A stretch of DNA of 45,979 nucleotides from a virus (IMGVR_UViG_3300040801_002588:1-45979); one strand, 5' to 3'; positions 1,996 through 38,485 are shown, counted from the stretch's first letter. Numbers and translations are program-made. The notes: generated from the letters alone by a model not told the origin.

Positions 1996-2003
1996 GGTGA
2001 TTT

Positions 2004-2039: not shown

Positions 2040-2534
2040 CTATGTACCGTGGTTAGGATGAAAATGTTTGTTGTCTTTGGCTTGCTGTCGGGCAAGCACA
2101 GCATCAGACAGTTCATCAAAAAAACCAAGATGCGTCAGTTTTTTGTTGTATCGGATGTACGCATGCCATTGTTGTTTTTGTTTGTCCCAGGTAACTCCAG
2201 CAGTGCCGCTGGTGTTAGAACGGTATAAAGGTTTGTTGCGATGATTTACGGCTTCAGAAACCGAACGCAAATTGCACCAGCGATTGTCAATTTTGTCATG
2301 GTTGATGTGATCAATGTGATCAGCAGGATATTGTCCGGTCATCCAAAGCCAAATAAGCCTGTGTTCAAGGTAGCTCTTACCACGATAGTGAATCCATCGG
2401 TAGTCTCGATAAATACAGCCAGCACGGTCTCCGGCTTTAATTTTGTAACCGCGGGGGATTTTCCAATAGACATGCCCAGTGACTGGATTGTAGTCAAAAA
2501 GGCGGCGAGCGAGAGCATAATCAATATGGGCCAT
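2040..2534 (-). CDS. HNH homing-type endonuclease with AP2-like C-terminal domain
   Basis: 164 residues using the ATG at 2534, chosen because GGAGA lies 6 bases before it; upstream in-frame codons have no better site. Residues about 58-100 carry the HNH_3 motif: E-H-R, then D-H-I-D-H-I-N-H-D, then D-N-R-W-C-N-L-R and N-H-R-N. These supply the histidines and asparagine that bind the catalytic metal. Residues about 105-164 (SGTAGVTWDKQKQQWHAYI) fit the small AP2/NUMOD-type DNA-binding tail of homing endonucleases. It lies on the strand opposite all surrounding late genes, between two structural genes, which is typical of a free-standing homing gene. It is expected to nick or cut DNA at the equivalent site of related phages that lack it. 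Confidence 0.9.
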   Translation of the reverse strand: MAHIDYALARRLFDYNPVTGHVYWKIPRGYKIKAGDRAGCIYRDYRWIHYRGKSYLEHRLIWLWMTGQYPADHIDHINHDKIDNRWCNLRSVSEAVNHRNKPLYRSNTSGTAGVTWDKQKQQWHAYIRYNKKLTHLGFFDELSDAVLARQQAKDNKHFHPNHGT

Positions 2535-2563
2535 AAACATTCTCCGGATGTTTTGGTCAAGTG

Positions 2564-2587
2564 GATACGGGGCTGCCACCCCGTATC
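2564..2587. repeat. Inverted repeat between HNH gene and small basic gene
   Basis: A perfect 9-bp stem, GATACGGGG / CCCCGTATC, with loop CTGCCA. No U-run follows on either strand, so it is not a standard intrinsic terminator. It sits just upstream of both the HNH gene (- strand) and the 2611 gene (+ strand), and an A/T-rich stretch (GATTATAGTATAG) follows before the 2611 ribosome site. It could be an RNA-processing or regulatory hairpin; function unknown. Confidence 0.5.
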
Positions 2588-2610
2588 TGCGATTATAGTA
2601 TAGGACTGAT

Positions 2611-2790
2611 ATGGCAGCAAAAAAGAAACCGATACGGATTAAGCCCTCCCACAAGGGCAAGTTTACTGCGTACAAAAAGCGCACGGGCAAGACAACTGCC
2701 CAAGCCAAGCGCAGTAAAAGCCCTGCGGTGCGGAAGATGGCTACGTTCGCTCAGAATGCCAAGAAATGGAACAAAGGTAAGAAACGCTGA
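2611..2790 (+). CDS. Small basic protein, FAxNAKKW type
   Basis: 59 residues, about one third Lys or Arg. It starts at ATG with GGA 5 bases upstream, and the TGA stop shares its last base with the next gene's start (TGATG). Visible motifs are IRIKPSHKGKFTAYKKRTGK near the N-terminus and FAQNAKKW near the C-terminus, a pattern I recall from short uncharacterised proteins in many environmental and gut phages. The strong positive charge suggests nucleic-acid contact or packing in the capsid, but no function is established. Its place between tail genes and the portal and its tight coupling to the 539-residue gene suggest late expression. Confidence 0.7.
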   Translation: MAAKKKPIRIKPSHKGKFTAYKKRTGKTTAQAKRSKSPAVRKMATFAQNAKKWNKGKKR

Positions 2791-26900: not shown

Positions 26901-29766
26901 GCGGATGTTGGAATGGTTAGCCGGCCTAAAAATGAAAACCAATCAGGGTTCAGTGTATACCGGGCTGGAGCAACTGACACTGGAGATTGTCAAATACAAC
27001 ACTCAGACAGCCCAGAAGATTCAGCGACGTCAGATGGGTAAACGTCCCCTTCTGGACCGCCTGAACACGGCTACAGGCGATCTGATCGATACAGTAACCC
27101 GCAAGCCAATCAAACGTCTGTTGGACCGTCAGCAGGGCGACAATTGGCGGAGCAATGGTTTACGTGGTGCCGTAGGCAAAGTAGCTAGCGAATACATGTC
27201 TGAACGCAGGAAGCATATCGAGCAGGCCATGGATGAGTGGTACCGAGGTATTGGTGGTGTCAAGAACAATGCTTTGTTTGAGATCATGGAAGAGTTTAAG
27301 CCGTACGATCCAGACAAGCGCAAGTGGTACCACGTGTTGCGCATGTCTGATCACGAGATTGAACAAGCCAGACGCCGTATGGCTGAAGACATTCGGCGCT
27401 TTATCATGGAGCATTTTGATAAGAAAAACTTCATGAACAAGGCTGAACGGGCAGCCATCACAACTGTGGTCATGCGGACCAACCTGCAGGTGTTGCTGGA
27501 TACCAATGCACCTAACTACAGTGAGTTAATCAAACTGCTCAGTGATCCCCAGTATTTACAAGCAGCTATCCAAGCTGAATTACGTACGCTGAACAAGGCA
27601 GTGAATGGCAACCAGGAATTGTTCAGAACATTCTATAACCAGGCCGGCAATCTGGGGTATTTCAAAATCGATGGTGTAGAGCGGCTTGAAGGTCAAATGT
27701 TTAATGCCACCAACATCGTAAACCAGGTCCAGTACCATAAGAACGAACGGTTAAAGGTACCGCATAAGGAAGACGCCATTGCAAGCGTGGAGCGGTTGTC
27801 TGCACTGCATGCTATCGATTTGATGCAGCACAATGGATCCAACGATATCCAAAATGCCTTGCGTGTGTTTAATCATGAAATGGCCAGGGATGTTGATATC
27901 AATGGCTTTACCTGGTTGGTTGATCTGCATAGTGTCTATGTCGCCATGGAAAAGAAGCGGCTACACAATGACAAAGCAGAGACCATGGTTGATGGGCATG
28001 TGTATGAGCAATATGACGAAGAGAGCAGCGTGCGGATTGAGATCGACACGCCAGCCAACAGGGAAGCCTTGGCGAAAGAAGGCTTTTTCTGGGTAGCTGA
28101 TTTCGAAGCGTCACCCAATGACCCCATCAAGGATAAGCGAGCTTGGTTCAAGAGTGCTCGTGGCATCAGTCTGCGCCAGCGTGGCGCCATATCAATTACC
28201 AGTGATGGTGATATTGGTCCGGACATGCGGGAAAACGTACGCCTGTCAGAGAAAGCCAGAAAACTGCATTTACGGGGACAGACACGCAGGCTGACCCAGC
28301 ATTTGGATACACAGACCAAGAATGCGGCCAGGGCCCAACGTCATACCATCATGGTGCAGCGGGACTACAACGGACCCAAGTTGATGGCCCCAGTGGTCAA
28401 TGAAGATGGTGAGGTTTACACCTACAAATACAATGTTCCAATGTCGATACGGGATAATGTGTTTGGTCGGGAGGATTACTTTGATCGGATCATGCCACGT
28501 CAGTTTGGCCACTTGGAAGATGTGGTTAAAAGTGAGGAGCATAACCGGAATATTGCCCGCATGTTGTTCGATGAGTATATCGCACTGAAAAACAATAAAG
28601 GCATACGCTTTGTACGCTATGGTGCGGACAGTACAGATCCGCGGATCCGAGAGACGTGGAACCTGTTGCCCAAAGCAATGAAAGAGGAAATGCGGCGTCG
28701 TTTTGGTGGGGATTATTTCTACATACGTGACGACATCACGAGTGCAGTGGTGGGATATCGTAAGCTGACCGTATCAGATGTAGCAGGCAAGCATGCCTTT
28801 GCTGTACGTACAGCTGAACGCATCGTGCAGGAGATCATGCAATGGACCAAATTGGATATCGCTATCCTGGATCCTACGGTAGCGGCAGCCAACATGGTCT
28901 CTAATATTGCTTTGCTACTGATGGCAGGCGTGCCCCCCGATTACATTATCAAGGAAGCAGCTGTAGCCATGCGAGGCGTGGCCCAGTATCGGAAGGATCT
29001 ACGGGAACTGCGTAGAAAACAACTACAGACACAAATGGACATCGCCAAAGGCGGTACTGGCAGTCAGTACTTGGGTGATTTGAAGTTACTGGAACATCGC
29101 ATTACACATAACCCAGTAAAGTCTTTGATGGATGAGGGTATTTTCACTACGATTGTCGAAGATCACGTGCCGGATGAAACATCCTTACGCAGTCGGGCTA
29201 TTGAAGCTGTTGAAGACAAAATGGGTCGAGCCATTCATCCATACGCTGCACGAGCAGTGAATGAATTCTGGATGCTACCCGGATCTACTGGCTTTCAGGT
29301 GATGATTGCAGCGACCCAGTATGCTGACTTTGTCAGCCGACATATCATCTACCAATATGAGACCCAGGTACGTGGAGCATCACATGAAGATGCTCTGGAC
29401 AAAGCTCTGGCTTACTTCATCTGGTATGACCTGCCGCAGAATATGTATCTGCAGTATGGCGGTGATATGGGAATGATCATGTTCAGTAAGTATTTCTTCA
29501 GGATTCAGCCTGTAGTTACCATGATCTTTGTGACCAATCCAGCCACAGCTACAGCTGTGATCTTGCTGCAGCCTATGCTAGCAGGGATGTTTCCGCAGCC
29601 CTTTGAGCAAGCTATGGGAGCCAACATCCAAGACTACTTAATGCTGGGTGGTTTTAATATCCAAGGGCGTTTACATATGTTCCCATTAATGGCAACAAGT
29701 GAACGTAACATATTGACACCTAACTTATTACAGGCAGTGATGTGGCCGATAGGTGGAATGCAATGA
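20968..29766 (+). CDS. Giant (2932 aa) virion RNA polymerase-like protein with two HExxH domains
   Basis: It occupies the N4 vRNAP (gp50) slot: last late gene, next to the convergent replication genes. Proposed T7/N4-type polymerase motifs: motif A at 791-797, D-A-K-G-A-G-L, with Asp and Gly spaced as in T7 D-G-S-C-S-G-I; motif B around 1081-1094, FKSRLMSALRMTYGS, with Y-G-S as in T7, though the nearest Lys is 11 rather than 8 residues before Tyr; motif C at 1250-1251 as L-D where H-D is usual. Residues 612-638 may be the T/DxxGR region. After the polymerase come two metallopeptidase-like domains: HEMAH at 1556-1560 with E1638, and HEYLH at 1863-1867 with E1935. The last ~330 residues are hydrophobic in patches, like the C-terminal part needed in N4 for packaging. 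It is expected to be ejected with DNA and to transcribe early genes from hairpin promoters. The polymerase assignment is inference from synteny plus motifs. Confidence 0.65.
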   Translation: MPLVCSIKGRTAEQTLKRIRSGELQAVKHITDAMREAREGMYDGAGYPAEKLLKIFTMPENAIRQEVYQTLAPYAWMALDTEIDNSIHELIENRDTTLDEIIERVDAIARDENLTLDTRLSNIRTAMFGRLAKFTQETGKRPSPKALNLAQGTSVAYIESVFLNKDSKSKLDEARNKKPVVDHLWDIFESRSEDKTNSIFALQANAMGLFETLLGQGLLWDVELGEIGASGDAFKAAAYRYLDYHKKFVNALRKAMGPYDPTKSKTAQHPLYNKGQNFDERLREDPSFFLRNPITGEMPANVEGALSAAVFWYASNIIGRTLYLNPREVNRRLGRRLDHPVSEDEMTNPEIQGESEEVARQMIGNMAWKALGMYHDRSVPGHHEELIKMALGQWGLETLAELGVIKPENVLVDLAEVTGSQIAESTKVRLIQLERVEREDSGTYNEETGILEDFEYDPPPLYRQMLDTYWALRNKGDTSPKNNNEQEVKGHLLGRLFGWGSDTSLPILADGNSEKPVTSPKLSSGNNSVPQVMADAATVHAQREQKFNTVGMHVMNLIGVVPFLNLYTKYESNRNKIHKDKRQGAIDRNTQLRADVNFMKRWFAVAKDQGFYIPNRFLNNWRNHEDSRLSRQMSKIHRAFVQPAETAYVIKAGQAGQTEKEFLVAVAEKIGISLRKDQVPRGERPVKFDPEALETWDQAYEQAQLYLNQPILKSDGTTSRLIVEVAEVLGRLSDPTRTHRATAQELKLLQELNYNDHEIEAEGFIALMNYGRYLTAPKGTEIEVFQPVQFDAKGAGLNWQLSQLITLDTYDESLNKLATGGYKINDEQVFDLDTRQMSTMKYLDQTTDAYERLRDARVTYTTSVAQGKTPVVVGTTIEFQETDLRITALTRNVEISKQNFLDIQSHTRPWESIFRTSKAKYEEDLADLRAAYAVTLTDANGKTLHQTLQELDLLPSDASKSRELVKHVAMIKAYFAGEISLEQRHIEDLFDTIRSMLAEQGTIDEAAQFLSILVRAVRLANAIDIKIDPEFRNLPGYEVGLTDATVMEQKLGEALKSLKPGQRVGAEISFNDTDIFTHNFKSRLMSALRMTYGSSLRYALRIENLNQDAVRKFMSEAVNIMAIIIRPVLDQKIKEQKMLGLDVGPAEINQIVRSMIKGGIWPTLQTHLSHNAETGLDAMSWDFEALDDVAFKIAREPSERVKKNSVKDNVRMLMPQGRGGIAANVRLNQALSDAVVMILVAEKVPLISTLDGGITSPKLVGEAVRLANEYSASSMLENNIMENLFNELAKTLVILRDDNTLLPPDVRKVVKARLHDALSRDYTPEPSVSLLDTWLGRFEGVVTQVKKAREQAFFSGIPVQFGNFVYRGGEITHQKKGVESNEKTPLGLLQAEMAANRGQTVVGLKAVTDAFLKSMESFETRYREFDVKRLAYGLSTNTESQMLRGILSRSNNAGGAKEVTLQELLEVMTDASNNVGRPLTHSIMQNLARYAKVFNANEIRVRWTDALLRDPDNPANLVYAEFDPKANGGKGIIRISGPYYTDNSNPDMDLWQAVTHEMAHGVLQRKFEQMFSDENLAENEPQVQAWLGRQMWALKQLKNVTSMQLPIQRIAEAANSKNLRKFMQNEANRDSVIKGLSEFYAWSLTSKEKIPESLQETLSLPDLNTQAKLGLNALIQQDRRNRRQEQQDAQGAATLVGLLSMPGVDVVQSEELQRRTEDIRKPGQEGNPQSSSTPTYGDPRIDGVEGAGETDLNLKEFITSFYNRTTADQVQYVFDVLSEREQGETSPEHQRQLKSIIQRFIIPGIRSIGWVETRLMDKMPTARHGGAYAYDNDTLGKGTVYLGAAGNQLTSNAYMSLEEIAAHEYLHAIIKFALRNNIHFRTELQRLFQLAKDNLTWENLMPPADQIVGDPKIAEEAAKRRWDYIFEGMGPNPLEDFMAIGLTNEPLSNALKTLDQAKLKNKPLIEGTFSERLRNLLTRMLEWLAGLKMKTNQGSVYTGLEQLTLEIVKYNTQTAQKIQRRQMGKRPLLDRLNTATGDLIDTVTRKPIKRLLDRQQGDNWRSNGLRGAVGKVASEYMSERRKHIEQAMDEWYRGIGGVKNNALFEIMEEFKPYDPDKRKWYHVLRMSDHEIEQARRRMAEDIRRFIMEHFDKKNFMNKAERAAITTVVMRTNLQVLLDTNAPNYSELIKLLSDPQYLQAAIQAELRTLNKAVNGNQELFRTFYNQAGNLGYFKIDGVERLEGQMFNATNIVNQVQYHKNERLKVPHKEDAIASVERLSALHAIDLMQHNGSNDIQNALRVFNHEMARDVDINGFTWLVDLHSVYVAMEKKRLHNDKAETMVDGHVYEQYDEESSVRIEIDTPANREALAKEGFFWVADFEASPNDPIKDKRAWFKSARGISLRQRGAISITSDGDIGPDMRENVRLSEKARKLHLRGQTRRLTQHLDTQTKNAARAQRHTIMVQRDYNGPKLMAPVVNEDGEVYTYKYNVPMSIRDNVFGREDYFDRIMPRQFGHLEDVVKSEEHNRNIARMLFDEYIALKNNKGIRFVRYGADSTDPRIRETWNLLPKAMKEEMRRRFGGDYFYIRDDITSAVVGYRKLTVSDVAGKHAFAVRTAERIVQEIMQWTKLDIAILDPTVAAANMVSNIALLLMAGVPPDYIIKEAAVAMRGVAQYRKDLRELRRKQLQTQMDIAKGGTGSQYLGDLKLLEHRITHNPVKSLMDEGIFTTIVEDHVPDETSLRSRAIEAVEDKMGRAIHPYAARAVNEFWMLPGSTGFQVMIAATQYADFVSRHIIYQYETQVRGASHEDALDKALAYFIWYDLPQNMYLQYGGDMGMIMFSKYFFRIQPVVTMIFVTNPATATAVILLQPMLAGMFPQPFEQAMGANIQDYLMLGGFNIQGRLHMFPLMATSERNILTPNLLQAVMWPIGGMQ

Positions 29767-29837
29767 GATCAATGTGATACTATCCGCCATGCAAGGTTAG
29801 TAGGTTATCTCTGTGCCCTTTCCGAACAAGGGATTAC

Positions 29838-29863
29838 GCCCCGCCGCCAGGCGGGGCTTTTTT
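29838..29863 (+). terminator. Intrinsic terminator of the late (+) unit
   Basis: Perfect 8-bp stem GCCCCGCC / GGCGGGGC with loop GCCA followed at once by six T, 72 bases after the giant gene's stop. This is a textbook rho-independent terminator for the whole late operon. Confidence 0.93.
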
Positions 29864-29868
29864 ATGCA

Positions 29869-29900
29869 CAAAAAGAAGGGCTGCATTGCTGCAGCCCTTC
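29869..29900 (-). terminator. Intrinsic terminator of the converging (-) unit
   Basis: Perfect 11-bp stem GAAGGGCTGCA / TGCAGCCCTTC with a 4-base loop. Read on the - strand it is followed by TTTTTG. It lies 44 bases after the stop of the exported-protein gene and only 5 bases from the late terminator, forming a two-way barrier. Confidence 0.9.
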
Positions 29901-29943
29901 CAGTACCTAACAGACGGGTTGGAACCTAACCCGGTGTCAGGAT

Positions 29944-31692
29944 TCAGTTAACGTCTGGCTTCGGTAATCCCGTAGCACAGTCGTCATCACCATTGGTGAC
30001 ACGCAGTTCACAGGTAGCCGAGTTACTGGTTACCGTGCACGTCTGCGGGCCACCGGGGTCACCTACACAATCCGCACCAGCGGTATTGACCGGAGTGGTC
30101 ACTACGACGGTTACCTGATCCATGAACGGGCAGGCATCTCCACTCGGGATGGACTGCGGATAGTAGAAGCCAGTGTAGCTGATGCACTGTCCAGCCGGGA
30201 TGGTGGTGGCATCTGGATTCAGCGTGACTGAACCATCCGCTACTGCATCCGTGAGGCTGGTGAGTGTAAGATCAACTTCACCATCGTTACAGACTTGACC
30301 ATCTACATTGACCCGGACTGCAAGCATGCTACCCATGTCTTCCACACCAACCTCACATTGCTTGTTGGCGTTCAGAGACGCATTGAACGTGCGAGCAGGG
30401 CACGTATCAGTCGCCGTAGCCGGATCAACCAAAGCACCGCCAAGACCTACAGCGGTAACAGTGACCGTATCCGTCGGAGCATTGATCGCACTCGCTTCCG
30501 AGAAGTAGAACACCAACGCTTCACCCGCATCCAGCGCGTACGTTGACGGGTCTGCGACGAGTGTTCCATTGGCCGTTGCGTCGGCAAGACTCGTTGCTGA
30601 TGAGCAGTCATTAGCCGCGTCAAACCCGGCTGGCGTTTCGTACCACGTAAGGTCCGCCGGAACATAATTACCCATACCTCCGATGTTGTTCTGGAAGTCG
30701 CTGAGATACAGCGAACCAGAGCCGTCATTGTAATAGCAACCACGAACATCGTAGGTAATGTTCAGCGGCGTATCGTCCGTCAGGTCATCATTGGTGCAGA
30801 CCTTGGAAGCCGCCACTGAGCAGACATCAAAGCCACCCAGCGCAAAGTCCTTGGCTGTGGATGTAAAGCTGGTCGAAGCACCTGTCGCTACCATGTAGCT
30901 GGAGAAGCACAGGTTGGCTCCGAAGAATGAGAACACATTGATACCACCTTCAAAGAACGTGGTCGGCGGGAACACCATGTCCGTGCCAGACTTCGGCGTG
31001 TACGGCCACGGGCTATCGGCGTCAATGAGGTTGGTGATGGCACATGCCCGACCACCGGAGCCGTCACAAGTAGACGCTTCCAGTGGTTGCAGAATGATGA
31101 TGTTGTCTGCTGCGCAGGACAACGCCACGTCGGGTGTCCGGTCATCTTTATCGCAGTCAGGCCACCAAGCGTACACAGCGATCTCTGCTACGCGACCGCC
31201 GTTACTGAACTTGGACGCTACGTACAGATCGCCTTCCACGTGGTTGCCAAAGAACGTGCCGTCAGGATTTAATCCAACATCATCCTGCAGTAACCAAAAC
31301 GCCAGTTCCGCATCACCATTGTCTGCGAATAGGTCGGCACCAAACATGACGACCTGTTCGCCGCTGACGATGTAATTGGCAGCATACGCATTGGTGATAT
31401 TGGTTTTGTCGGGCGGAGGCGGAGAACCTTTCCACTTGTAGTTGGGAAAGTCCTCGGGAACCTTTGATCCGCCACCGGTGAAGATGGTATCCGGTGAACT
31501 GAAATCCTCGATGATGCCGGAAAAGGTAGTCTGGGCGCCGCCGCCCCCATACAGCGTATCCCAGTCGTCACCAGTTACAGCGGTGTCTTCAGCGTCACCG
31601 TCAAGTTCGAAAATACCCAGATCATCTACTGCTAAAAGCGGGGTACAGAATACCGCCGCTCCTAACAGCACGGCTGTTAAGAATCGCTTCAT
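29944..31692 (-). CDS. Exported cysteine-rich protein (moron-like)
   Basis: 582 residues from the ATG at 31692, with AGGAG upstream. The first 21 residues (MKRFLTAVLLGAAVFCTPLLA) form a Sec signal peptide, cleaved after A-x-A-like L-L-A; no lipobox is formed. The region after it carries L-D-G-D, G-D-D-W-D, TIFTGGGSK, P-D-K and MFGADLFADNGDAELAFW, which I recognise from secreted proteins of environmental bacteria (LDGN...GDDWD type), not from phage structural proteins. The C-terminal half contains paired Cys and at least two similar beta-rich repeats. It is bracketed by intrinsic terminators on both sides, so it is an independent transcription unit. A likely role is alteration of the infected cell's surface or matrix; this is inference. 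Confidence 0.75.
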   Translation of the reverse strand: MKRFLTAVLLGAAVFCTPLLAVDDLGIFELDGDAEDTAVTGDDWDTLYGGGGAQTTFSGIIEDFSSPDTIFTGGGSKVPEDFPNYKWKGSPPPPDKTNITNAYAANYIVSGEQVVMFGADLFADNGDAELAFWLLQDDVGLNPDGTFFGNHVEGDLYVASKFSNGGRVAEIAVYAWWPDCDKDDRTPDVALSCAADNIIILQPLEASTCDGSGGRACAITNLIDADSPWPYTPKSGTDMVFPPTTFFEGGINVFSFFGANLCFSSYMVATGASTSFTSTAKDFALGGFDVCSVAASKVCTNDDLTDDTPLNITYDVRGCYYNDGSGSLYLSDFQNNIGGMGNYVPADLTWYETPAGFDAANDCSSATSLADATANGTLVADPSTYALDAGEALVFYFSEASAINAPTDTVTVTAVGLGGALVDPATATDTCPARTFNASLNANKQCEVGVEDMGSMLAVRVNVDGQVCNDGEVDLTLTSLTDAVADGSVTLNPDATTIPAGQCISYTGFYYPQSIPSGDACPFMDQVTVVVTTPVNTAGADCVGDPGGPQTCTVTSNSATCELRVTNGDDDCATGLPKPDVN

Positions 31693-31721
31693 TGTCTCTC
31701 TCCTGCGCTGCTTGTGAACAT

Positions 31722-31737
31722 CCCGCAGGTTTGCGGG
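31722..31737 (-). promoter_or_regulatory. Leader hairpin upstream of exported-protein gene
   Basis: A perfect 6-bp stem, CCCGCA / TGCGGG, with a 4-base loop, 30-45 bases before the start codon, inside the short gap between the upstream terminator and the gene. A promoter for this gene must lie in the same ~70 bases; a weak -10-like TATGCT is visible near 31748. Whether the hairpin is part of a promoter or of the mRNA leader is open. Confidence 0.35.
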
Positions 31738-31760
31738 GTCATTCTTAGCATAGCACGCGG

Positions 31761-31809
31761 AGAAAAAAAGAAGCCCCCAGTGAAAGGAGAATGCATACTC
31801 ACCGGAGGC
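31761..31809 (-). terminator. Intrinsic terminator between 297-aa gene and exported-protein gene
   Basis: On the - strand GCCTCCGGTGA pairs with TCACTGGGGGC (11 pairs, two of them G-U) around a 15-base loop and is followed by TTCTTTTTTT. It should stop transcription from the long - strand operon before the exported-protein gene, implying separate expression of that gene. Confidence 0.8.
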
Positions 31810-31927
31810 TAAGGTGCGGCCAATGAAGAGAAACCGCACTAGGGGTTGGTGGGGCAACTAACAGGAACTTGAGTATCTGTGCTAACAGTTACGGGTAAGT
31901 TTATGGTCCTGCTCGCTGCCCCGTCGA

Positions 31928-32821
31928 TCAGAACTCAGCGCCTGCGACGAATGCAGGAATGTCCTTGGTGGCCGTGGGTTCATCGCCCCACTGACCCGGA
32001 AGGCGCTTCTCGTAGCCTTTCACAGGCTGCGCCGATCCAACGTCGATCTGGTGCGCCAGGTTCAATGCCACGCTGAAGGCGCGGGATTTGTACTGCGCCG
32101 TTTCGAAGTACGCATTCATGGCGTAGGCAATCCACTGCGGGTGGTTGGTGATCGTGTGGACGTAGGTACGCGGAATGGATACGCCGTTGTAGACCACTAC
32201 GCCACCGTGTAGCTGACCGGCCATGACCGACACACCGACGAAGTGGTACTTGACGAACATGGCTTTCCACACTTCCTGCTCGGTCTGGTTGTACGGCCAG
32301 AACGGCCCCATGACGTAGGGCGGCTGCTCACTGCCGTCCATGTTGTGCATGTTCATGGTGGGCAGCATGACCCACTGGTCCAGCATCGCGTGACCAGCCA
32401 TCGCAATGATCCGCTTGCTGACACCGTAGTGTTCAGCCACTGCATCAGGCTGCTCGATCCACAGGCGGGCGCTCTCCTGCCGCTTCTGCAGCAGGTGGCA
32501 ACCGTAGTAGCGTTTCTTGCTAACGTTAAGACCCTGATGTACTGGGCCGCTGAAGTATTTGTTGAGAGTGGTCTGACTGGTCGGCAGTTCGACCGGCATC
32601 AGATCCAGTTGCTCGTAGCCTTCAGCGTTCTGCACCTCGACCGGCGAGAAGTCATCCGGCAGGGGCGGCGGTGGCGTGCGCTGGCCGGTGGCCGTATGGG
32701 CCTGGTTGTTGACGATGAACTCCAGTGCCGTGACCTGCTTCTGCCACTCGGGGTTATCGGGGTACTTCGCCGCCATGCGACGGGCGTGTTCTAGCATTGC
32801 TACGGTTTGGTTCGAGGCCAT
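31928..32821 (-). CDS. Hypothetical 297-aa protein
   Basis: Clear AGGAGAT ribosome site before ATG. The N-terminal ~40 residues are helical, followed by a Pro-rich stretch (QRTPPPPLPDD). The C-terminal 200 residues are rich in His, Met, Tyr and Trp (for example MLPTMNMHNMDG and YHFVGVSVMAGQLHGG) with no signal peptide or membrane helix. I do not recognise a family. It is the last gene of the long - strand operon before the terminator at 31761-31809. The Pro-rich hinge suggests two parts; no catalytic motif could be assigned. Confidence 0.65.
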   Translation of the reverse strand: MASNQTVAMLEHARRMAAKYPDNPEWQKQVTALEFIVNNQAHTATGQRTPPPPLPDDFSPVEVQNAEGYEQLDLMPVELPTSQTTLNKYFSGPVHQGLNVSKKRYYGCHLLQKRQESARLWIEQPDAVAEHYGVSKRIIAMAGHAMLDQWVMLPTMNMHNMDGSEQPPYVMGPFWPYNQTEQEVWKAMFVKYHFVGVSVMAGQLHGGVVVYNGVSIPRTYVHTITNHPQWIAYAMNAYFETAQYKSRAFSVALNLAHQIDVGSAQPVKGYEKRLPGQWGDEPTATKDIPAFVAGAEF

Positions 32822-32830
32822 GATATCTCC

Positions 32831-32923
32831 TTAGATGATGCCCATTTTAATCCACCAGTACAGCAGCCACAGGACAACAAGGATGCTACAGGTGAGGATG
32901 ATTTTGTCTTCTAAACGTCTCAC
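32831..32923 (-). CDS. Possible 30-aa single-pass membrane peptide (GTG start)
   Basis: Starting at GTG, the peptide has four charged residues in its first seven, then a long hydrophobic stretch (IILTCSILVVLWLLYWW) and ends IKMGII, 9 bases before the next gene's start. No good ribosome site is visible, so translation is uncertain. It fills the only gap between two genes in this operon. Confidence 0.4.
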   Translation of the reverse strand: MRRLEDKIILTCSILVVLWLLYWWIKMGII

Positions 32924-32944
32924 GCAGCATAATTTACCACAGAA

Positions 32945-33376
32945 TCAATCAGGTTCAGCTTGTTTGCGCTTGATTGTCGAGTACACGCCACTCTCAATAT
33001 CTTCAATCTTTACTTCAGATTTGGGACGGATATCGAAATACAATTTGCCATTGCGTTCACCACTGATGTGAACTGTGCTGTCCTTGTACTTGCGTTGTTC
33101 AAAGGAACCATCAGGATAATTCAGAATAATCTTGTCATTCCGCTTGGTAACAATAGGTGGTTCGTCAGCATGAGCAGACAGGCTGGAAATCATCATGGCA
33201 AACAGAACCATCATAACGATGAGGATCAGGGCCAGCCAGGTCAGGTTAATGTGCCCATCCAGCCAACGCTCCCACTTGGCGGAGCACTGCCCGCACCATG
33301 GGCAGCTGCCGTTATCACGGACATTGATGGAGCGACGATGGCAATGCGTGCACGTGCTATCCCAGTTCGGGTTCAT
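32945..33376 (-). CDS. Zinc-ribbon/transmembrane protein with periplasmic domain
   Basis: 143 residues. Residues 9-28 hold two C-x2-C pairs (CTHC and CPWC), a zinc ribbon expected on the cytoplasmic side. A single hydrophobic helix lies at about 44-65 (LTWLALILIVMMVLFAMMIS) and is followed by S-A-H-A, which could be a signal-peptidase site. The remaining ~75 residues form a charged beta domain outside the inner membrane. The start overlaps the upstream gene's end by 20 bases. The unusual mix of metal finger, membrane anchor and external domain suggests a membrane-signalling or superinfection-related role, but nothing in the sequence proves one. Confidence 0.65.
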   Translation of the reverse strand: MNPNWDSTCTHCHRRSINVRDNGSCPWCGQCSAKWERWLDGHINLTWLALILIVMMVLFAMMISSLSAHADEPPIVTKRNDKIILNYPDGSFEQRKYKDSTVHISGERNGKLYFDIRPKSEVKIEDIESGVYSTIKRKQAEPD

Positions 33377-33551
33377 TTTGAGCTTCCTTCTCGCGTTTGA
33401 TCAGGTCAGCCAGCCGGGTGGGAATGACGATGTTGTCGTTACAGCTGGGACAGCAGACGCCATGATCCTTGGCTGGGGCAGGGTTGTTCTTTTCGTAAAG
33501 GGTGTACAGGACGGTACCACAGAAGACACAAGGTTCAGGTTGGGACATCAT
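33357..33551 (-). CDS. Small zinc-ribbon protein
   Basis: 64 residues from the ATG at 33551, chosen for the GAGGAG 7 bases upstream. Two cysteine pairs, C-V-F-C (8-11) and C-P-S-C (34-37), make a zinc ribbon, followed by a charged helix. The start overlaps the preceding stop (ATGA). Likely cytoplasmic; function unknown. Confidence 0.65.
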   Translation of the reverse strand: MMSQPEPCVFCGTVLYTLYEKNNPAPAKDHGVCCPSCNDNIVIPTRLADLIKREKEAQNEPELG

Positions 33552-33748
33552 CGACAGGCTCCTCGATGGATTAATGCAACAGCTGTAATAGAAGATGGGA
33601 TCATTATGCAAAGTAAGGACACAACGACCCATTCCGGTATTGAAATGCCAAATGCCTTGAGTACAAGGAAAGCAGCAGTGGCTCCGAAAGCCATCCAAGA
33701 CAATGTTTTGGCGACCCAGATAATACGATCAATCGTCTTGGTCTGCAT
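33548..33748 (-). CDS. Small membrane protein, two helices
   Basis: 66 residues with a GAGGAG ribosome site. Two hydrophobic segments (WVAKTLSWMAFGATAAFLVL and WVVVSLLCIMIPSSITAVAL) are separated by a short I-S-I-P-E turn; short charged ends. The size fits a holin-like or membrane-modifying peptide, but N4-type lysis genes normally lie in the late region, so this is only a possibility. The stop is coupled to the next gene. Confidence 0.6.
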   Translation of the reverse strand: MQTKTIDRIIWVAKTLSWMAFGATAAFLVLKAFGISIPEWVVVSLLCIMIPSSITAVALIHRGACR

Positions 33749-33980
33749 CGTCAGGCTCCTCGTCAGATATGCCAGGTTGGTTTATCAGTAGCTGGTTCAG
33801 GTCGTGGATAGGAAGGATATAACAACCTGTGTCGCCCTGGATGGACTGCCAACGGCTTGACAGTTCGATCAGGTCAGTCAGCAACTCGGCGTACTGTTGG
33901 TTACGCTCTCGCAGTTGATACAGGGCATTGCCTGCAATATCGCCGATCTCCACGGCAGAGTGTGGTTTACTCGTTGTCAT
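33729..33980 (-). CDS. Hypothetical 83-aa protein with acidic tail
   Basis: Helical and charged (ALYQLRERNQQYAELLTDLI), ending in a strongly acidic tail (DEEPDDADQDD). It overlaps both neighbours (14 bases upstream, 20 downstream). It resembles the other short acidic-tailed helical proteins of this cluster, though it lacks the RIAELE motif. Confidence 0.6.
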   Translation of the reverse strand: MTTSKPHSAVEIGDIAGNALYQLRERNQQYAELLTDLIELSSRWQSIQGDTGCYILPIHDLNQLLINQPGISDEEPDDADQDD

Positions 33981-34173
33981 CTGGGTTCCAATAATTGTCT
34001 AATGCCGCTGGGTAACTTTCGGTTTGTACTACCCATACAATATCAACGTCAGGCTCAGCGTCGAGGCACTGCTCTTCGGCGTGGTCGTTGTCTTCGGCAT
34101 GGCATGCGAATCCCATTGGGTTATCGCCGGGAGCACACAGCTTGGTTTTGTACAGCACGATGTAATTATTCAT
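33967..34173 (-). CDS. Hypothetical 68-aa protein
   Basis: Start set at ATG 34173 because the preceding gene's last codons supply GGGAG 7 bases before it. The sequence begins MNNYIVLYKTK and contains many Asp, Glu and Asn plus two Cys, with an acidic C-terminus (WNPDDNE). The upstream gene's C-terminal Asp-Glu codons overlap this gene's ribosome site and start. No family recognised. Confidence 0.6.
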   Translation of the reverse strand: MNNYIVLYKTKLCAPGDNPMGFACHAEDNDHAEEQCLDAEPDVDIVWVVQTESYPAALDNYWNPDDNE

Positions 34174-34414
34174 CTTCATCTCCCAGCGCAGGTGGCGTCC
34201 AGCCCAGTTCAATCAGCTTGTTGTGGATGGCGCTTTCTTTCATGGCAGGGGACAAGTTGTATTCAACAGTGACGGTTTGTCCAGAACGAATGGCTTTCAG
34301 TTCTGCTTCCAGTTTATCGATGCATTCAGCGGCTTTTTTCAGAACATCCCATCCCGGTTGATTCTTGTCCCCGATTGCATACAGCGCCAATAATCTTTTC
34401 TTTAGAGCACTCAT
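34166..34414 (-). CDS. Small helical protein of the coiled-coil cluster (82 aa)
   Basis: Starts MSALKKRLLALYAIGD at the shared ATGAGTG-type junction and ends in G-D-E-D-E. A central helix holds ECIDKLEAELKAI, a variant of the repeated coil seen in neighbouring genes. The last codons (GGAGATGAAGATGAA) double as ribosome site and start of the next gene. Confidence 0.6.
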   Translation of the reverse strand: MSALKKRLLALYAIGDKNQPGWDVLKKAAECIDKLEAELKAIRSGQTVTVEYNLSPAMKESAIHNKLIELGWTPPALGDEDE

Positions 34415-34752
34415 TCTTCACCCTCCAGGGCCGCTTCAAGTCTTTCCAGGTAAGAACCAACAACCGTTACACCATGCCCGATAGCCGCGTTTCCGAGGCG
34501 GGTATCTTCCCCCATCTCATCGGTTATTTCCCGAACCTTATCCAGCTTCGCTTCCAGTTCAGCATTCCGCGTATCCAGTACTGCCACCTGTTCGCATATA
34601 TCGTCCAGTGCTTTATCCAGTTCAGCGATGCGTTCCGTCAAACGGTTCAATTCTTTAACGGAATTTACGCGGCGTGAGGACATCGGACGGAAACAGTATT
34701 GAGTCTTCCAATATTGCTTGTAAGTTTTTGCTGGATTGATAAAGTCACTCAT
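34411..34752 (-). CDS. Coiled-coil protein of the mosaic small-gene family (113 aa)
   Basis: Starts MSDFINPAKTY by overlap with the upstream stop. Residues about 40-85 are a coiled coil, including ERIAELDKALDDICEQ, which is closely repeated in the 34944-35324 gene (QRIVELDKTLDDICEQ), and a later NAELEAKLDK. Ends in E-G-E-E. The shared block implies duplication or recombination between these genes. No catalytic motif; a binding or bridging role is plausible. Confidence 0.65.
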   Translation of the reverse strand: MSDFINPAKTYKQYWKTQYCFRPMSSRRVNSVKELNRLTERIAELDKALDDICEQVAVLDTRNAELEAKLDKVREITDEMGEDTRLGNAAIGHGVTVVGSYLERLEAALEGEE

Positions 34753-34951
34753 CGGTCAGTTCCTCCAGCATAAAAGCAGGAATGCTGTGGGTTTCAGCAA
34801 CATAGGAAATTAGTGCCCTATGTTTGCGTGTCCACTCACGAACGTTCCGTTTGTCTTGTTCCAGTTCAGCGATGCGACACTGTGGGCAAAAGTCGGGCGG
34901 TGCATAGCTGACTTTATGCTCGCACCCACTTCGGATCAGTTTGTCACTCAT
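34745..34951 (-). CDS. CxH...CxxC zinc-knuckle plus coil protein (68 aa)
   Basis: Start at ATG 34951 (MSDKLIRSG), which follows GGAGATGAAG of the upstream gene. Residues 10-25 hold C-E-H then C-P-Q-C, a likely zinc site, followed directly by RIAELEQDKRN, the family coil. A second gene at 35299-35451 has the same order (C-E-H, C-P-D-C, RIAELE), so the two are paralogues. Ends in E-E-L-T-D-E. Confidence 0.65.
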   Translation of the reverse strand: MSDKLIRSGCEHKVSYAPPDFCPQCRIAELEQDKRNVREWTRKHRALISYVAETHSIPAFMLEELTDE

Positions 34952-35324
34952 CTTCATCTCCAAGTGTCCGTTCAATCAGGGCGTGAAGTTCGTTATTCTT
35001 GTGTAGGAAAACATCTGCATAAACCTCTTGCAGCACAGCCTCCAGTTCAGCGATGCGTTTTTTATCTTCCTTCCACTCTCGCAAGTTGCGTTCATGGGTT
35101 TTGATCAGGCGCTTTTTCTGCTTTTTCAGTTCAGCGATGTGTTCCAGCAGGACGTCCATCTGTTCGCATATATCATCCAACGTTTTATCCAGTTCTACGA
35201 TGCGCTGATCTACTTCCTCTACATCGTACCAATCACCATCATCATCCTGGTGGTTTAACGCTGGCAGTTCTTCGCCCATATCGGTGAGGCAGTAGCATCT
35301 AAATTTCGTCAGGTTTCTCATCAT
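34944..35324 (-). CDS. Long coiled-coil member of the mosaic family (126 aa)
   Basis: Two adjacent ATG codons (35324, 35321) follow GGA; the first is used here. After an acidic N-terminal region (HQDDDGDWYDVEEVD) come three coil blocks: QRIVELDKTLDDICEQ, EHIAELKKQKKRL and KRIAELEAVLQEVYA. The last codons encode T-L-G-D-E-D-E and overlap the next start. It appears to combine modules found singly in neighbouring genes. Confidence 0.65.
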   Translation of the reverse strand: MMRNLTKFRCYCLTDMGEELPALNHQDDDGDWYDVEEVDQRIVELDKTLDDICEQMDVLLEHIAELKKQKKRLIKTHERNLREWKEDKKRIAELEAVLQEVYADVFLHKNNELHALIERTLGDEDE

Positions 35325-35451
35325 CAAAGTCCAACAGGCTCAACGCACGTTTGAGCATTTTGTTTTCAGTTTCCAGTTCAGCGATGCGGCAATCTGGACA
35401 GTTATCAATCCAGCCTTCTGCCATGTGTTCACACCATTTTCGCTCACTCAT
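35299..35451 (-). CDS. CxH...CxxC zinc-knuckle plus coil protein (50 aa)
   Basis: 50 residues from ATG 35451, which follows GGAAGATGAAG in the previous gene's end. C-E-H at 7-9 and C-P-D-C at 18-21 form the putative zinc site; RIAELETENKMLKRALSLL makes the coil; the tail is acidic (DFDDEKPDE). Paralogue of the gene at 34745-34951. Confidence 0.65.
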   Translation of the reverse strand: MSERKWCEHMAEGWIDNCPDCRIAELETENKMLKRALSLLDFDDEKPDEI

Positions 35452-35872
35452 CTTCATCTTCCAGTGCAGATTGCAGTTCGCCAGTTGCTTGCTCAACTGC
35501 GGAATATGGGCCGACGTGCCATGTACGCCTCCGTAGACTAATAATCTTTTCTCGCACCCTGCCTATCTTGTTCTTTTCTGCTGCCAGCAGCTTCAAAGCA
35601 CGGCCTGCGTCATCACGATTTCGCTGAATGCATTCGGCTGGGGTTTCGCCGTCCTTGAGGTACGGCTTGCAGGCTTCCAGTTCAGCGACTTTACGCAGCG
35701 CTTCACCCTCCGCTTTAATTGCTGCGTGTTCGCTGTCTTTGTATTCGTTCAGCAGGTTTTGTAGTTCAGAGATGCGGTCAAATGCTTTTTTTAGCTCGAT
35801 GTCACGGAGCTTGATAATCCGTACAAGGTCGTTGATCTTGGCGATTAGTGGTTCATTTTGTTTTTCCTTCAT
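35444..35872 (-). CDS. Coiled-coil protein (142 aa), first of the mosaic family
   Basis: Start coupled to the upstream stop (TGATG). Almost wholly helical with heptad-like Leu/Ile spacing; contains DRISELQNLLNEY and RKVAELEACKPY, related to the RIAELE block of downstream genes, and ends in A-L-E-D-E-D-E. Basic patches near the middle (KNKIGRVREKIISLRRR) could contact nucleic acid. It is the longest and most upstream gene of the cluster. Confidence 0.65.
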   Translation of the reverse strand: MKEKQNEPLIAKINDLVRIIKLRDIELKKAFDRISELQNLLNEYKDSEHAAIKAEGEALRKVAELEACKPYLKDGETPAECIQRNRDDAGRALKLLAAEKNKIGRVREKIISLRRRTWHVGPYSAVEQATGELQSALEDEDE

Positions 35873-36087
35873 CAGTCACGGTCCTGTTGTTGTGGCATCC
35901 TGACGATGGCACGCTTGTCACCGACAATCTGGTTGGCCAGAAACCAGACCATCCAGAATACGGCCATGCCGACGAACCAGGGCGCTTGTTGGCCCATAAT
36001 GAACACGGTAGCCAGGATACCCAGGCCCCAGCCCAGGATCTGTGACCACATGTTGGATCGACGTACGTACAGGACATGAACTTTCAT
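35872..36087 (-). CDS. Small inner-membrane protein, two helices (71 aa)
   Basis: GGAG lies 9 bases before ATG. Basic N-terminus (KVHVLYVRRSN), then two hydrophobic helices (ILGWGLGILATVFIMG and FVGMAVFWMVWFLANQIV) and a basic C-terminal tail, so both ends should be cytoplasmic. Overlaps both neighbours (ATGA, TGATG). Function unknown. Confidence 0.65.
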   Translation of the reverse strand: MKVHVLYVRRSNMWSQILGWGLGILATVFIMGQQAPWFVGMAVFWMVWFLANQIVGDKRAIVRMPQQQDRD

Positions 36088-36296
36088 CTGATTTTCTCCG
36101 CGACTCCTACTCTTTCCACGGTGTCGACTGTGACATCTTTGTAGCTATCACCGGCGGGTTCCCAGTTCAGGTCATCGTCATAGCGGCGATCCATGGCGCC
36201 AGCAGCAGCCATCTGATCATCCACAGCACGGACGAGTACAGTGGTGTACTCGTCACGCGCCCGAACCAGGGTCACTCTGAACAGTTGTTCTTTCAT
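36084..36296 (-). CDS. Hypothetical 70-aa protein
   Basis: The ATG at 36296 is used; the TTG four codons earlier is less likely. Mixed alpha/beta and acidic: begins MKEQLFRVTLVRARDEYTTV, then many Asp and Ala. It follows a gap of ~165 bases after the 36461 gene. Coupled to the next gene by ATGA. No family recognised. Confidence 0.55.
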   Translation of the reverse strand: MKEQLFRVTLVRARDEYTTVLVRAVDDQMAAAGAMDRRYDDDLNWEPAGDSYKDVTVDTVERVGVAEKIR

Positions 36297-36460
36297 CAGG
36301 TTTTCCAAAAATAGGTGGGACGGGGTACGCGATGACTGTACCTGGAGTGTCTAGAATTTCCGTAGCCGGAGTAATCTCTTACAGGGAGATCAACCCCTGC
36401 ACCGGCACCGTCCCATTGAACAGTTATAATAGGTGAAGCAGCCCGGGCGGCTTCAGAAAC
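36297..36460. other. Intergenic gap with weak inverted repeats
   Basis: A 164-base gap in an otherwise overlapping operon. On the - strand it contains AGCCGCCCGGGCTGCT, a near-perfect palindrome just after the 36461 stop, then a A/T-rich CCTATTATAACTG that could serve as a -10 region. A promoter or processing site for the downstream small genes is possible but not proven. Confidence 0.35.
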
Positions 36461-36685
36461 TTAGTGAATCTCGTCAGGTTCTTCTTCTTCTTCTTCGACC
36501 TGCGCTTTATCCAATTCTGCGTACTCCAGAACTTTGATTTCGTCGTCCAGCTCGTTGATACGCTGGCTCAGTGTCTGGAAGATGCTGAAGCACAGGCTGC
36601 GCCAGTCAACAGGCACATTCTTCTGGTATGCAGCGTCGGCTGCTTGCAGCAGTTCAATGACAGTAACGGGTTTGGTTTCAGACAT
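36461..36685 (-). CDS. Hypothetical 74-aa helical protein with polyglutamate tail
   Basis: AGGAG ribosome site; start overlaps the upstream stop (TAATG). Helical throughout (VIELLQAADAAYQKN, then LSQRINELDDEIKVLEYAEL, a coil similar in style to the RIAELE family) and ends with six consecutive Glu then P-D-E-I-H. Function unknown. Confidence 0.6.
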   Translation of the reverse strand: MSETKPVTVIELLQAADAAYQKNVPVDWRSLCFSIFQTLSQRINELDDEIKVLEYAELDKAQVEEEEEEPDEIH

Positions 36686-36915
36686 TAGTAGATCTCCTTG
36701 ATGGATAGGACTTTGTGGATGTCAGGGTCGTACACTTCGTCGAGCTTGGCAGCCATTTGTTCGCGGGCACGGATGCCAGCGATGGTGCGTAAGGGTGGAC
36801 CATCAAAGCCTCGGGGCATGGCTTCCTGGGCACTGATGAAAAACGTCATCACTTCATCCGTCTGCAGATGCCAGCACTGGACTTCATATTCTCTGGGTTG
36901 TGGTTTATGGGTCAC
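36685..36915 (-). CDS. Hypothetical 76-aa protein (GTG start)
   Basis: GTG start with GGAG 7 bases upstream. Contains YEVQCWHLQTDEVMTFFISA and a Pro/Gly loop, looking like a small alpha/beta domain. Coupled to the next gene by TAATG and preceded by a strong hairpin (36934-36961). Confidence 0.6.
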   Translation of the reverse strand: MTHKPQPREYEVQCWHLQTDEVMTFFISAQEAMPRGFDGPPLRTIAGIRAREQMAAKLDEVYDPDIHKVLSIKEIY

Positions 36916-36933
36916 TGCTTTCTCCGATTGAAG

Positions 36934-36961
36934 TTGGTGGGCACCGTCAGGTGCCCACCAA
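36934..36961 (-). promoter_or_regulatory. Perfect 12-bp hairpin in the - strand operon
   Basis: TTGGTGGGCACC / GGTGCCCACCAA around a 4-base loop (GTCA on the + strand), 19 bases before the GTG start of the 36685-36915 gene. No U-run follows on the - strand, so it is more likely an RNA-stability or processing element, or a weak terminator, than a full terminator. Loop identical to the one after the capsid gene. Confidence 0.55.
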
Positions 36962-37070
36962 CAATTAACGCTGGAATGGTTCCGGGCATTTATGAACGCC
37001 AGGGATGAACCCGGACCATTGTTCTATCGCCCTGCTCCCAGCATCACAGGACTGGAGTCATCCCCTATGG

Positions 37071-37349
37071 CTATGCGGAATTGCGTGCAACACGCATGTA
37101 TTCTGCCACAGCATGGCTGGCTTCCTTGGCTGCTTTTGCTACCTCGGAGAGCCCTACCTCGTCACGATCTTTCAGCTCACGCTCGTAGATCATTTCGAGG
37201 GCTTTGGCCAAGCTGTTGGGATAGGCTGGGTCATCTGTTTTCCAAATGATCTCGCCTTTGTTCTTGCCGGACTGCATGACATGCCTGCGTTGGATAATCC
37301 AACCGTATTGGTCTGATACGATGCGGCGTTTGCCGCAGTTGATGATCAT
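37071..37349 (-). CDS. Hypothetical 92-aa protein
   Basis: GGAGG ribosome site 7 bases before ATG; the start overlaps the preceding stop (ATGA). N-terminal beta hairpin (RRIVSDQYGWIIQRR), then W-K-T-D-D-P-A-Y-P-N-S-L and two helices (AKALEMIYERELKDRD, KAAKEASHAVAEYMRVA). The layout recalls small phage proteins of unknown role. It is followed by ~155 bases without a gene, holding an imperfect inverted repeat (AATGGT...ACCATT) and the 36934 hairpin. Confidence 0.6.
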   Translation of the reverse strand: MIINCGKRRIVSDQYGWIIQRRHVMQSGKNKGEIIWKTDDPAYPNSLAKALEMIYERELKDRDEVGLSEVAKAAKEASHAVAEYMRVARNSA

Positions 37350-37489
37350 GAGCTGCCTCCATCAGAGATGACGGCATACAGGAAATAAACAGCAGCAGCA
37401 CAGCCGACAATAAATCCGAAGACAGGTGCCGCTATGCCGATACCCATGACCAGCAAAATCAGACCCACTACAAACAGCATGTCTTTCAT
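37346..37489 (-). CDS. Small membrane protein, two helices (47 aa)
   Basis: GAGG 8 bases before ATG. MKDMLFVVGLILLVMGIG is the first hydrophobic segment, and PVFGFIVGCAAAVYFLYAVI is the second; tail S-D-G-G-S-S. The stop overlaps the next start. Too short for a usual ORF cut-off, but the ribosome site and both junctions are good. Confidence 0.65.
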   Translation of the reverse strand: MKDMLFVVGLILLVMGIGIAAPVFGFIVGCAAAVYFLYAVISDGGSS

Positions 37490-37492
37490 GGT

Positions 37493-37717
37493 TCAGTCCT
37501 CGTCGTTGCTGCCAAATCCAAACGGAGTACTACCCACAGCAGGTGCAGGCTGTTCTGTGGGGCTGGTGATCTCCACCTCTGCTGAGGTACTCGGCGGCTT
37601 GCGATTGGCAACGAAGCGGATTTCCACCTGACGGTTTTCGAGGGGAATGCCCTGACTGGATCGCAGGTACTCGGTGACGGCTTCTACCAATTCATCTTGG
37701 TTTAGTTGTACGAACAT
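37493..37717 (-). CDS. Hypothetical 74-aa protein
   Basis: GGAGG upstream. Begins MFVQLNQDELVEAVTEYLRS, then a beta strand (RQVEIRFVAN) and a Pro/Ser/Thr-rich tail ending F-G-S-N-D-E-D. It looks like a small alpha/beta protein with a flexible acidic tail, similar in style to SSB-type tails; function unknown. Confidence 0.6.
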   Translation of the reverse strand: MFVQLNQDELVEAVTEYLRSSQGIPLENRQVEIRFVANRKPPSTSAEVEITSPTEQPAPAVGSTPFGFGSNDED

Positions 37718-37719
37718 GC

Positions 37720-37998
37720 TTAAGCCTCCCGTGCAATTTTGCGAGCCATCTCCGCAAAGGAGTCATAGTTGGCGTCTTCGGTTTTTCGACACTCCGCACA
37801 CATCTGACGACGGCGGATGTCCCTCAATTCTTGTTGGCTACGGAATTCGAAGGCGCCACAGCTGCAGCGCACTCTGTACCAGTGCTGGTCATCGACCATG
37901 ACCCGCCCGTTACGCGGGTTAATGTTGGTATGGTCCACGTACTTGATCACCATGAACTGACCAACCTTCTGAAACGGTTGAAATCTAGGCTTCGCCAT
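37720..37998 (-). CDS. Zinc-ribbon protein (92 aa)
   Basis: ATG 37998 is used because AGGA lies 7 bases before it. C45-S-C47 and C67-A-E-C70 form a likely zinc site inside a beta region (WYRVRCSCGAFEFRSQQEL). Many Arg and Lys. It overlaps the end of the RuvC-like gene by 14 bases, so the two may be co-expressed; DNA or RNA binding is a reasonable guess. Confidence 0.65.
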   Translation of the reverse strand: MAKPRFQPFQKVGQFMVIKYVDHTNINPRNGRVMVDDQHWYRVRCSCGAFEFRSQQELRDIRRRQMCAECRKTEDANYDSFAEMARKIAREA

Positions 37999-38485
37999 TG
38001 GGATTTCCTTTTGGGTAAGTGTTGAACATATGGTGGGCAATCATCAGAGCATCTGCCCGACCATCAAGAAGGCCCCCACGAGGGCCGTACAGCTCGGCAG
38101 AAGGGTAAAGCCTGCTCGCGGTAGCTGCAATGGCTTGCTTCAGCCCTGCAGGCCCCCCAGCGGCCTTACGCGTTGGTAGCTTTGCTGTACGTTGCCACTC
38201 GCGGGGCCTGACAAGTTCGACTCCGATGCAGGTGGCCTCGGCAATGGCACAGACCATGCCGAAATTGAAGCCGAACTTGAAATTGCTCCCGGCACTGGTT
38301 CCCTGGATAGCATGCACATCTTCGATCCCAATCATGTAGGGATCCTTGAGCTTGATCCAGTCAAGCATGCGATGTGGCGGGAACTTGGGGCAGGGAGTAG
38401 GACGGAACTGTACCTGCTTGGTATCGGAATCGAGTAGACACAGGGCGCCAGAGGCGCCCGGGTCTATACCAAGGTAAAGCGCCAT
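37985..38485 (-). CDS. RuvC-like Holliday-junction resolvase
   Basis: 166 residues. RNase H-fold catalytic residues are visible: G-I-D8-P-G at the start, E55 in M-I-G-I-E-D, and D141/D145 in L-L-D-G-R-A-D-A-L-M-I-A. This is the four-acid pattern of RuvC nucleases. About the usual length (~170). Expected to resolve branched DNA formed by replication and recombination before packaging. The start is coupled to the SSB gene stop (TGATG), placing it in the replication operon. Confidence 0.85.
   Translation of the reverse strand: MALYLGIDPGASGALCLLDSDTKQVQFRPTPCPKFPPHRMLDWIKLKDPYMIGIEDVHAIQGTSAGSNFKFGFNFGMVCAIAEATCIGVELVRPREWQRTAKLPTRKAAGGPAGLKQAIAATASRLYPSAELYGPRGGLLDGRADALMIAHHMFNTYPKGNPNGEA

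Follow-up and report, generated by a model that had tools for sequence, protein, structure and literature searches.

How does a phage come to carry a row of adjacent small genes whose products look as if they had been assembled from the same few pieces? The question is raised by the minus-strand genes between 33967 and 35872 of a 45,979-base linear viral sequence, a single fragment that was analysed whole and is called the window here. A preliminary description had proposed that at least five of these genes share modules, and that duplication and module shuffling gave rise to them.

The gene content of the window and the identity of its primase suggest that the phage belongs in or near the Schitoviridae (N4-like phages). 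The portal protein matches Pfam SU10_portal and phrog_1216, the primase matches phrog_2135 and is 41-52% identical to those of most named N4-like phages, and the window also encodes a major head protein, an exonuclease, a Sak4-like annealing protein, an SSB, a family A polymerase and a virion RNA polymerase. The replication genes lie in the order exonuclease, primase, Sak4-like protein, SSB, and the virion RNA polymerase genes are convergent to them, both as in Schitoviridae. Genomes of that family measure about 70-79 kb and have terminal repeats; because the N4-like genomes listed run roughly 68-79 kb, the record is a fragment. The virion RNA polymerase seems to be spread over two plus-strand ORFs separated by 12 nt, through either a genuine gene split or a frameshift. 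The first (16696-20955, 1419 aa) matches phrog_2206, the virion RNA polymerase profile, in an N-terminal stretch only (profile positions 55-380), and the second (20968-29766, 2932 aa) matches positions 1664-3378 at E 7.6e-189 and carries two HExxH-type motifs, HEMAH and HEYLH, which suggest metallopeptidase-like segments. The major head protein (8122-9951, plus strand) has 609 aa and matches its 356-position family profile nearly end to end, which implies that it carries a large insert, about 250 aa long.

The small genes lie in a variable slot of 8.7 kb (29767-38484), which runs from the minus-strand genes for SSB and the RuvC-type resolvase to the end of the convergent, plus-strand virion RNA polymerase genes. 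In seven named Schitoviridae, the same interval measures 1.1-3.4 kb and contains no RIAELE-type motif, the hexapeptide that recurs in the array. The flanking SSB and the Sak4-like protein have homologues in named relatives and in the IMG/VR relatives L132-L136, as does the resolvase in several of them, whereas the array genes have no homologue at E 0.01 in 12 loci from relatives. Searches of the array proteins against Pfam, PHROG and NCBIfam gave no family above cut-off and weak generic coil matches, and a profile search among PDB sequences found nothing better than weak coil matches. The slot has no more consensus sigma-70 promoters than chance would give; its terminator-like sites number 15 against 7.8 expected, and a facing pair on the two strands at 29838-29901 fits the convergent gene end. 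By analogy with N4 biology, the array may be expressed with the replication genes in mid-infection. Next to the end of the virion RNA polymerase genes, the slot also holds a minus-strand gene that is unusual for it (29944-31857); its 637-aa product has a signal-peptide-like start and many cysteines and matches nothing in Pfam and PHROG searches.

Three of the array ORFs (g34745, g35299 and g33967) had been drawn from TTG, and these starts are mis-set. The real starts are most likely the ATGs at 34951, 35451 and 34173, respectively, each of which has GGAG or GGAAG 6-10 nt upstream, inside the GDEDE-type tail of the preceding gene. Read in this way, the minus strand encodes g33967 (33967..34173; 68 aa, MNNYIV...), whose ATG lies inside the tail of g34166; g34166 (34166..34414; 82 aa), a coil with CIDKLE and the tail ALGDEDE; g34411 (34411..34752; 113 aa), a coil protein with RIAELDKALDDICEQ and the tail ALEGEE; g34745 (34745..34951; 68 aa), in which a zinc-knuckle-like head, MSDKLIRSGCEHK...CPQCRIAELE..., is followed by a helix; g34944 (34944..35279; 111 aa from the ATG at 35279); g35299 (35299..35451; 50 aa), MSERKWCEH...CPDCRIAELE...; and g35444 (35444..35872; 142 aa), a coil that carries the portable module PYLKDGETPAECI and ends in ALEDEDE. 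The start of g34944 is uncertain, as it lacks a good ribosome-binding site and in-frame ATGs also occur further upstream.

Most array genes have an embedded ribosome-binding site of this kind. At these seams, the upstream frame ends in (G/E)DEDE-stop or GDEDE-stop, and the downstream frame opens with an ATG, after which come Ser-Asp, Ser-Glu or Asn-Asn. The seam GGAGATGAAGATGAGTGA (34944..34961) combines GDEDE-stop with a ribosome-binding site at 34958-34961 and an ATG at 34949-34951, and GGAAGATGAAGATGAGTGA (35444..35462) and GGGAGATGAAGATGAATAA (34166..34184) have the same design. Two further minus-strand seams vary it: at 34411..34426, GGAGG and an ATGA overlap join the tail EGEE-stop to a gene beginning MSALKK, and at 34745..34766, GGAGG lies inside the tail LEELTDE-stop ahead of MSDFINPA. 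The exact 18-mer GGAGATGAAGATGAGTGA occurs at 47 places in IMG/VR, where the genes that it joins belong to many unrelated families; at least one flanking frame is open at all 47, and both are open at 33, at the lengths tested. Given the embedded signals and the variety of genes that they join, the shared acidic tails are best read as mostly a translational coupling signal. If this is right, annotators should take the GDEDE-type tails common in such arrays for translation signals, not protein domains.

Inside the genes, sharing was judged against shuffles that keep the pattern of hydrophobic, charged and small residues. The RIxELDKxLDDICEQ module of g34411 and g34944 scores 86 against a shuffle mean of 53, which none of 300 shuffles reached, and its two copies, RIAELDKALDDICEQVAVL (34576..34632, minus strand) and RIVELDKTLDDICEQMDVL (35148..35204, minus strand), are 82% identical as DNA within an in-frame alignment of 116 columns. 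The other pair, g34745 and g35299, shares CEH...CPxCRIAELE with a score of 66 against a mean of 35 (1 of 300 shuffles) and an in-frame DNA alignment of 30 nt; the head followed by RIAELE comprises Cys10-x-His12...Cys22-Pro-x-Cys25 in g34745 (34859..34924, minus strand) and Cys7-x-His9...Cys18-Pro-x-Cys21 in g35299 (35371..35433, minus strand). Both modules named in the preliminary description are thus borne out, and module sharing holds for these four adjacent minus-strand genes. It does not extend to the coils of g35444 (RISELQ, KVAELE) and g36461, which align no better than shuffled coils, or to g33967, which shares the seam only, and the remaining similarities that had been listed are generic coil at the level of the shuffle controls. 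Between g34166 and the RIAELE block of g34944 there is a single DNA match, in frame but weak.

The DNA sequence that had been described as recurring many times on the plus strand, CCAGTTCAGCGATGCG, does so: the window contains four exact copies and nine at up to 3 mismatches, where 0.42 are expected. All nine lie on the plus strand between 34.3 and 35.8 kb, and every one is the complement of frame-0 codons in a gene on the minus strand. The exact copies are at 34617..34632 (antisense of RIAELD codons), 34861..34876, 35042..35057 and 35373..35388, and copies with 2 mismatches at 35126..35141 and 35189..35204 lie opposite HIAELK and RIVELD; over the nine sites, the encoded peptides are RIAELE/D, RIVELD, HIAELK, RISELQ, RNAELE and CIDKLE. 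Within proteins, RIAELE-type units are spaced by 21, 21, 28 and 28 residues, which is heptad phase and partly what any coil would give. Four RIAEL copies, however, use the same five codons, for which P is ~2e-7 under independence and the codon usage of this phage, so that coil convergence alone is insufficient and common descent or gene conversion is needed.

These observations bear on three other accounts of the likeness. Coiled coils favour I, L, E, R, K and A in their heptads, and unrelated small genes could have converged on similar sequences; most pairs in the cluster are indeed no better than class-preserving shuffles, and weak matches reach many generic coil families. We consider convergence an unlikely explanation of the whole, since two gene pairs stand well above the shuffles, their synonymous codons agree and their in-frame DNA identity reaches past the hexapeptide; for g34411/g34944 and g34745/g35299, the codon-level identity already disfavours it. 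The likeness could also lie mainly in the seam, with acidic tails and MS[DE] starts forced by the embedded ribosome-binding site and little sharing of modules. The breadth of GGAGATGAAGATGAGTGA, which joins 33 gene pairs among its 47 matches, fits such a reading, as does an analogous LEDK-stop seam, GGAGGATAAGTGATG, which differs in sequence, follows the same logic and recurs in the IMG/VR locus L126. We nonetheless think it rather improbable, because the sharing of CPxC-RIAELE and RIxELDKxLDDICEQ, far from the seams, is left unexplained. Least probable by a wide margin is that CCAGTTCAGCGATGCG is primarily a DNA element, such as a protein-binding, replication or packaging site, whose location in genes is incidental. 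Its confinement to one strand, with many copies in ~1.5 kb and none elsewhere in the window, would suit an element of this kind, but we rejected it because all nine copies share one coding frame; their mismatches, moreover, yield residues compatible with a coil, and the identical spelling occurs in the coding frame of unrelated phages, mostly unclustered.

The modules can also be followed into other phages. The module LEACKPYLKDGETPAECIQRNRDDAGRALKLLAAEK of g35444 (35573..35680, minus strand) is also found in gp15 of EBPR podovirus 1 and in two IMG/VR contigs, where what flanks it is unrelated. Over its central 38 residues (LEACKPYLKDGETPAECIQRNRDD...), g35444 has 74% identity to a stretch of gp15, a protein that otherwise differs, and the DNA of the module is 83% identical to that of EBPR podovirus 1 over 72 nt. 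The CPxC-RIAELE head occurs in seven IMG/VR stretches. Two of these, L007 and L127, are from unrelated phages, in which the head is joined to different tails and the ends are of GDEDE or GNEDD type; L007 has a T7-type Gp2.5 SSB, its polymerase is a different one, and the L127 tail (VPKLTETIRMPNTEWVSDEHN...) recurs in L126 behind a coil head of non-zinc type. Among 84,980 prokaryote genomes, the zinc-head-RIAELE pattern gave one match; no gene corresponds to its frame, and it was judged to be chance. IMG/VR yielded no copy of the LDDICEQ module and, in a protein-pattern search, no confirmed relative of g34944 or the SSB; tblastn against named phages gave no match for g34745 and weak coil matches only for g35299. 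L126 itself holds, on its minus strand (1014-2850), an array of small genes with LEDK-stop tails, RIAELE coils and CPYC heads that resembles the window cluster in build, and its phage has no match to the N4-like portal or primase.

RIAELE appears to mark the point at which such exchanges break. Among 103 non-redundant RIAELE contexts from IMG/VR loci fetched by the same codon spelling, ten pairs are homologous upstream over at least 20 aa, and homology is lost directly after RIAELE in eight and continues in two. In 13 pairs with downstream homology, it is lost directly before RIAELE in seven, lost within the adjoining 8-17 aa of coil in four and continued in two. Most of these pairs had been picked for sharing the motif, and single-query searches free of that condition were therefore added. 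In one, against named phages, many partial matches start at residue 72 or end at 74, 77 or 78, with RIAELE at 73-78; in a second, the breaks are concentrated in a different stretch of coil (residue 75) and directly behind RIAELE (117), so other coil segments act as joints too. Several targets of these searches are annotated as Ead/Ea22-like. Because the usual place for protein homology to break in unrelated phages is RIAELE or the residues directly ahead of it, a recombination joint at the motif is strongly suggested, although the break-points come from other phages, mostly lambdoid Ead/Ea22 relatives, and not from close relatives of this phage.

Taken together, the DNA repeats, which are in frame and agree in their synonymous codons, the module in gp15 and the breaks at RIAELE agree with the duplication and shuffling proposed at the outset, and make it fairly probable that the locus is a lineage-specific accessory array in an N4-like variable slot, diversified by local duplication and by recombination at RIAELE-coil codons. 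In this model, origin of the genes by local duplication and recombination is strongly suggested, and the RIAELE-coil codons would be the joint between a head, which may be a zinc-knuckle, charged or absent, and a helical tail that varies, with frame and coil phase intact. Annealing-type recombination by the exonuclease and the Sak4-like protein of the phage (40492..41217, minus strand), a candidate recombinase for short-homology exchange, would work on such short homologies. Rad52-like phage recombinases act on short diverged sequences, in a study that does not mention Sak4 and in which mosaics between virulent phages are rare (PMC3945230). Against the joint model, the exact repeats of 16-18 nt are short for efficient homologous recombination, and the same picture could result from illegitimate exchange if selection then favoured products with the coil intact. 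RIAELE is also a near-ideal coil heptad, so some of its recurrence is convergent. The array is a real and well-marked instance of modules duplicated and shuffled in an accessory slot of a phage, new in detail and of a kind already known.

The coil itself may contribute to what is displayed. A monomer model predicts g34944 as one continuous 91-residue helix at high confidence (pLDDT ~97), in which intervals of 21 and 28 residues separate three RIAELE-type units. RIAELE, which is present in g34745, g34944 and g35299, fits the R-hxxhE trimerisation motif of coiled coils (PMC3653964), with Arg at g, hydrophobic residues at a and d, and Glu at e. It may thus seed oligomers with varied ends, and the products could be small coiled-coil oligomers, possibly trimers given this fit, that would present different end modules to host proteins, a step that we hold with low confidence. 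Zinc binding by the CxH...CPxC heads is predicted from Cys/His spacing; six proteins have CPxC without variation, the outer pair takes several forms (CxH, CxxH and others) and some of the proteins do not conserve it, and the structure model has low confidence in this head. A bolder extension, which we offer tentatively, is that RIAELE-coding DNA is a phage-wide portable joint that provides 17-18 nt for annealing, keeps frame and heptad phase and seeds trimerisation, so that any head could join any tail and still oligomerise; with the seam, this would make a two-level combinatorial system. If right, it would explain a steady supply of new small accessory proteins with frame, oligomeric state and expression retained, and would allow a long-standing question, whether phage mosaicism is driven by short homologies at the boundaries of genes and domains, to be tested on a defined sequence of 17 nt. 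In the literature searched, neither RIAELE nor any of three longer forms was found as a word.

A role in host interaction or anti-defence is plausible for the cluster proteins by analogy. The more specific proposal, that the array consists of small zinc and coil proteins which block restriction or other host defences and are diversified by shuffling, is doubtful. The variable slot would suit it, and the protein that shares the g35444 module, gp15 of EBPR podovirus 1, is weakly Lar-like at its N-terminus (E 0.03) and lies beside gp14, a Lar restriction-alleviation protein (E 2e-11); this circumstantial link is the sole hint in that direction. Against it, none of the proteins in the window has a match to Lar or to an anti-defence family, and many other roles are possible for N4-like middle genes. 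Lar (PF14354) proteins resemble those of the array in being small, phage-encoded and equipped with CPxC motifs like those of zinc ribbons, and the Lar-like head of gp15 adjoins the module also found in g35444, but in the array CPxC runs straight into coil, and membership was rejected for want of a profile match by any window protein.

The accessory array that we favour has a closer structural parallel in Ea22 of lambda and Stx phages, small acidic early accessory proteins published as mosaic, which have the N-terminus and a coiled coil at the centre in common and differ by swaps of the C-terminal regions (PMC10834534). The lambdoid proteins that bear RIAELE are annotated Ead/Ea22-like and break at the motif. 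The likeness of the array, a central coiled coil with variable ends, is structural only: membership in Ead/Ea22 (PF13935) was rejected, as g34944 scores 17.6 bits (E 0.006), below the cut-off of 27, and no other cluster gene matches. Unlike Ea22, several genes of one array share modules here, with zinc-type heads and in an N4-like phage; the Ea22 protein of lambda forms tetramers and not trimers (PMC10834534), and its pro-lysogenic role need not hold for the array. A survey of domain shuffling in phage proteins describes sub-gene fragments that are still being exchanged; it puts its emphasis on receptor-binding proteins, endolysins and polymerases and calls coiled-coil repeats, as in tape measure proteins, hard to judge (Smug et al. 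2023, PMC10684548). In the array, the joint itself is the coil. The lambdoid boundary sequences (bsq) of Shigella phage Sf6 are similar in being short conserved DNA at small-gene junctions in mosaic regions, whereas the recurrent DNA of the array is of two sorts, junction seams and a coil-coding joint inside genes. In Sf6, bsq3 lies at the start of the ea22-like gene 21, which itself carries RIAELE. The RIAELE proteins of lambdoid loci (L070, L114, L022, L013 and others) have a common C-terminal AAGIxxE..GE tail, perhaps another seam.
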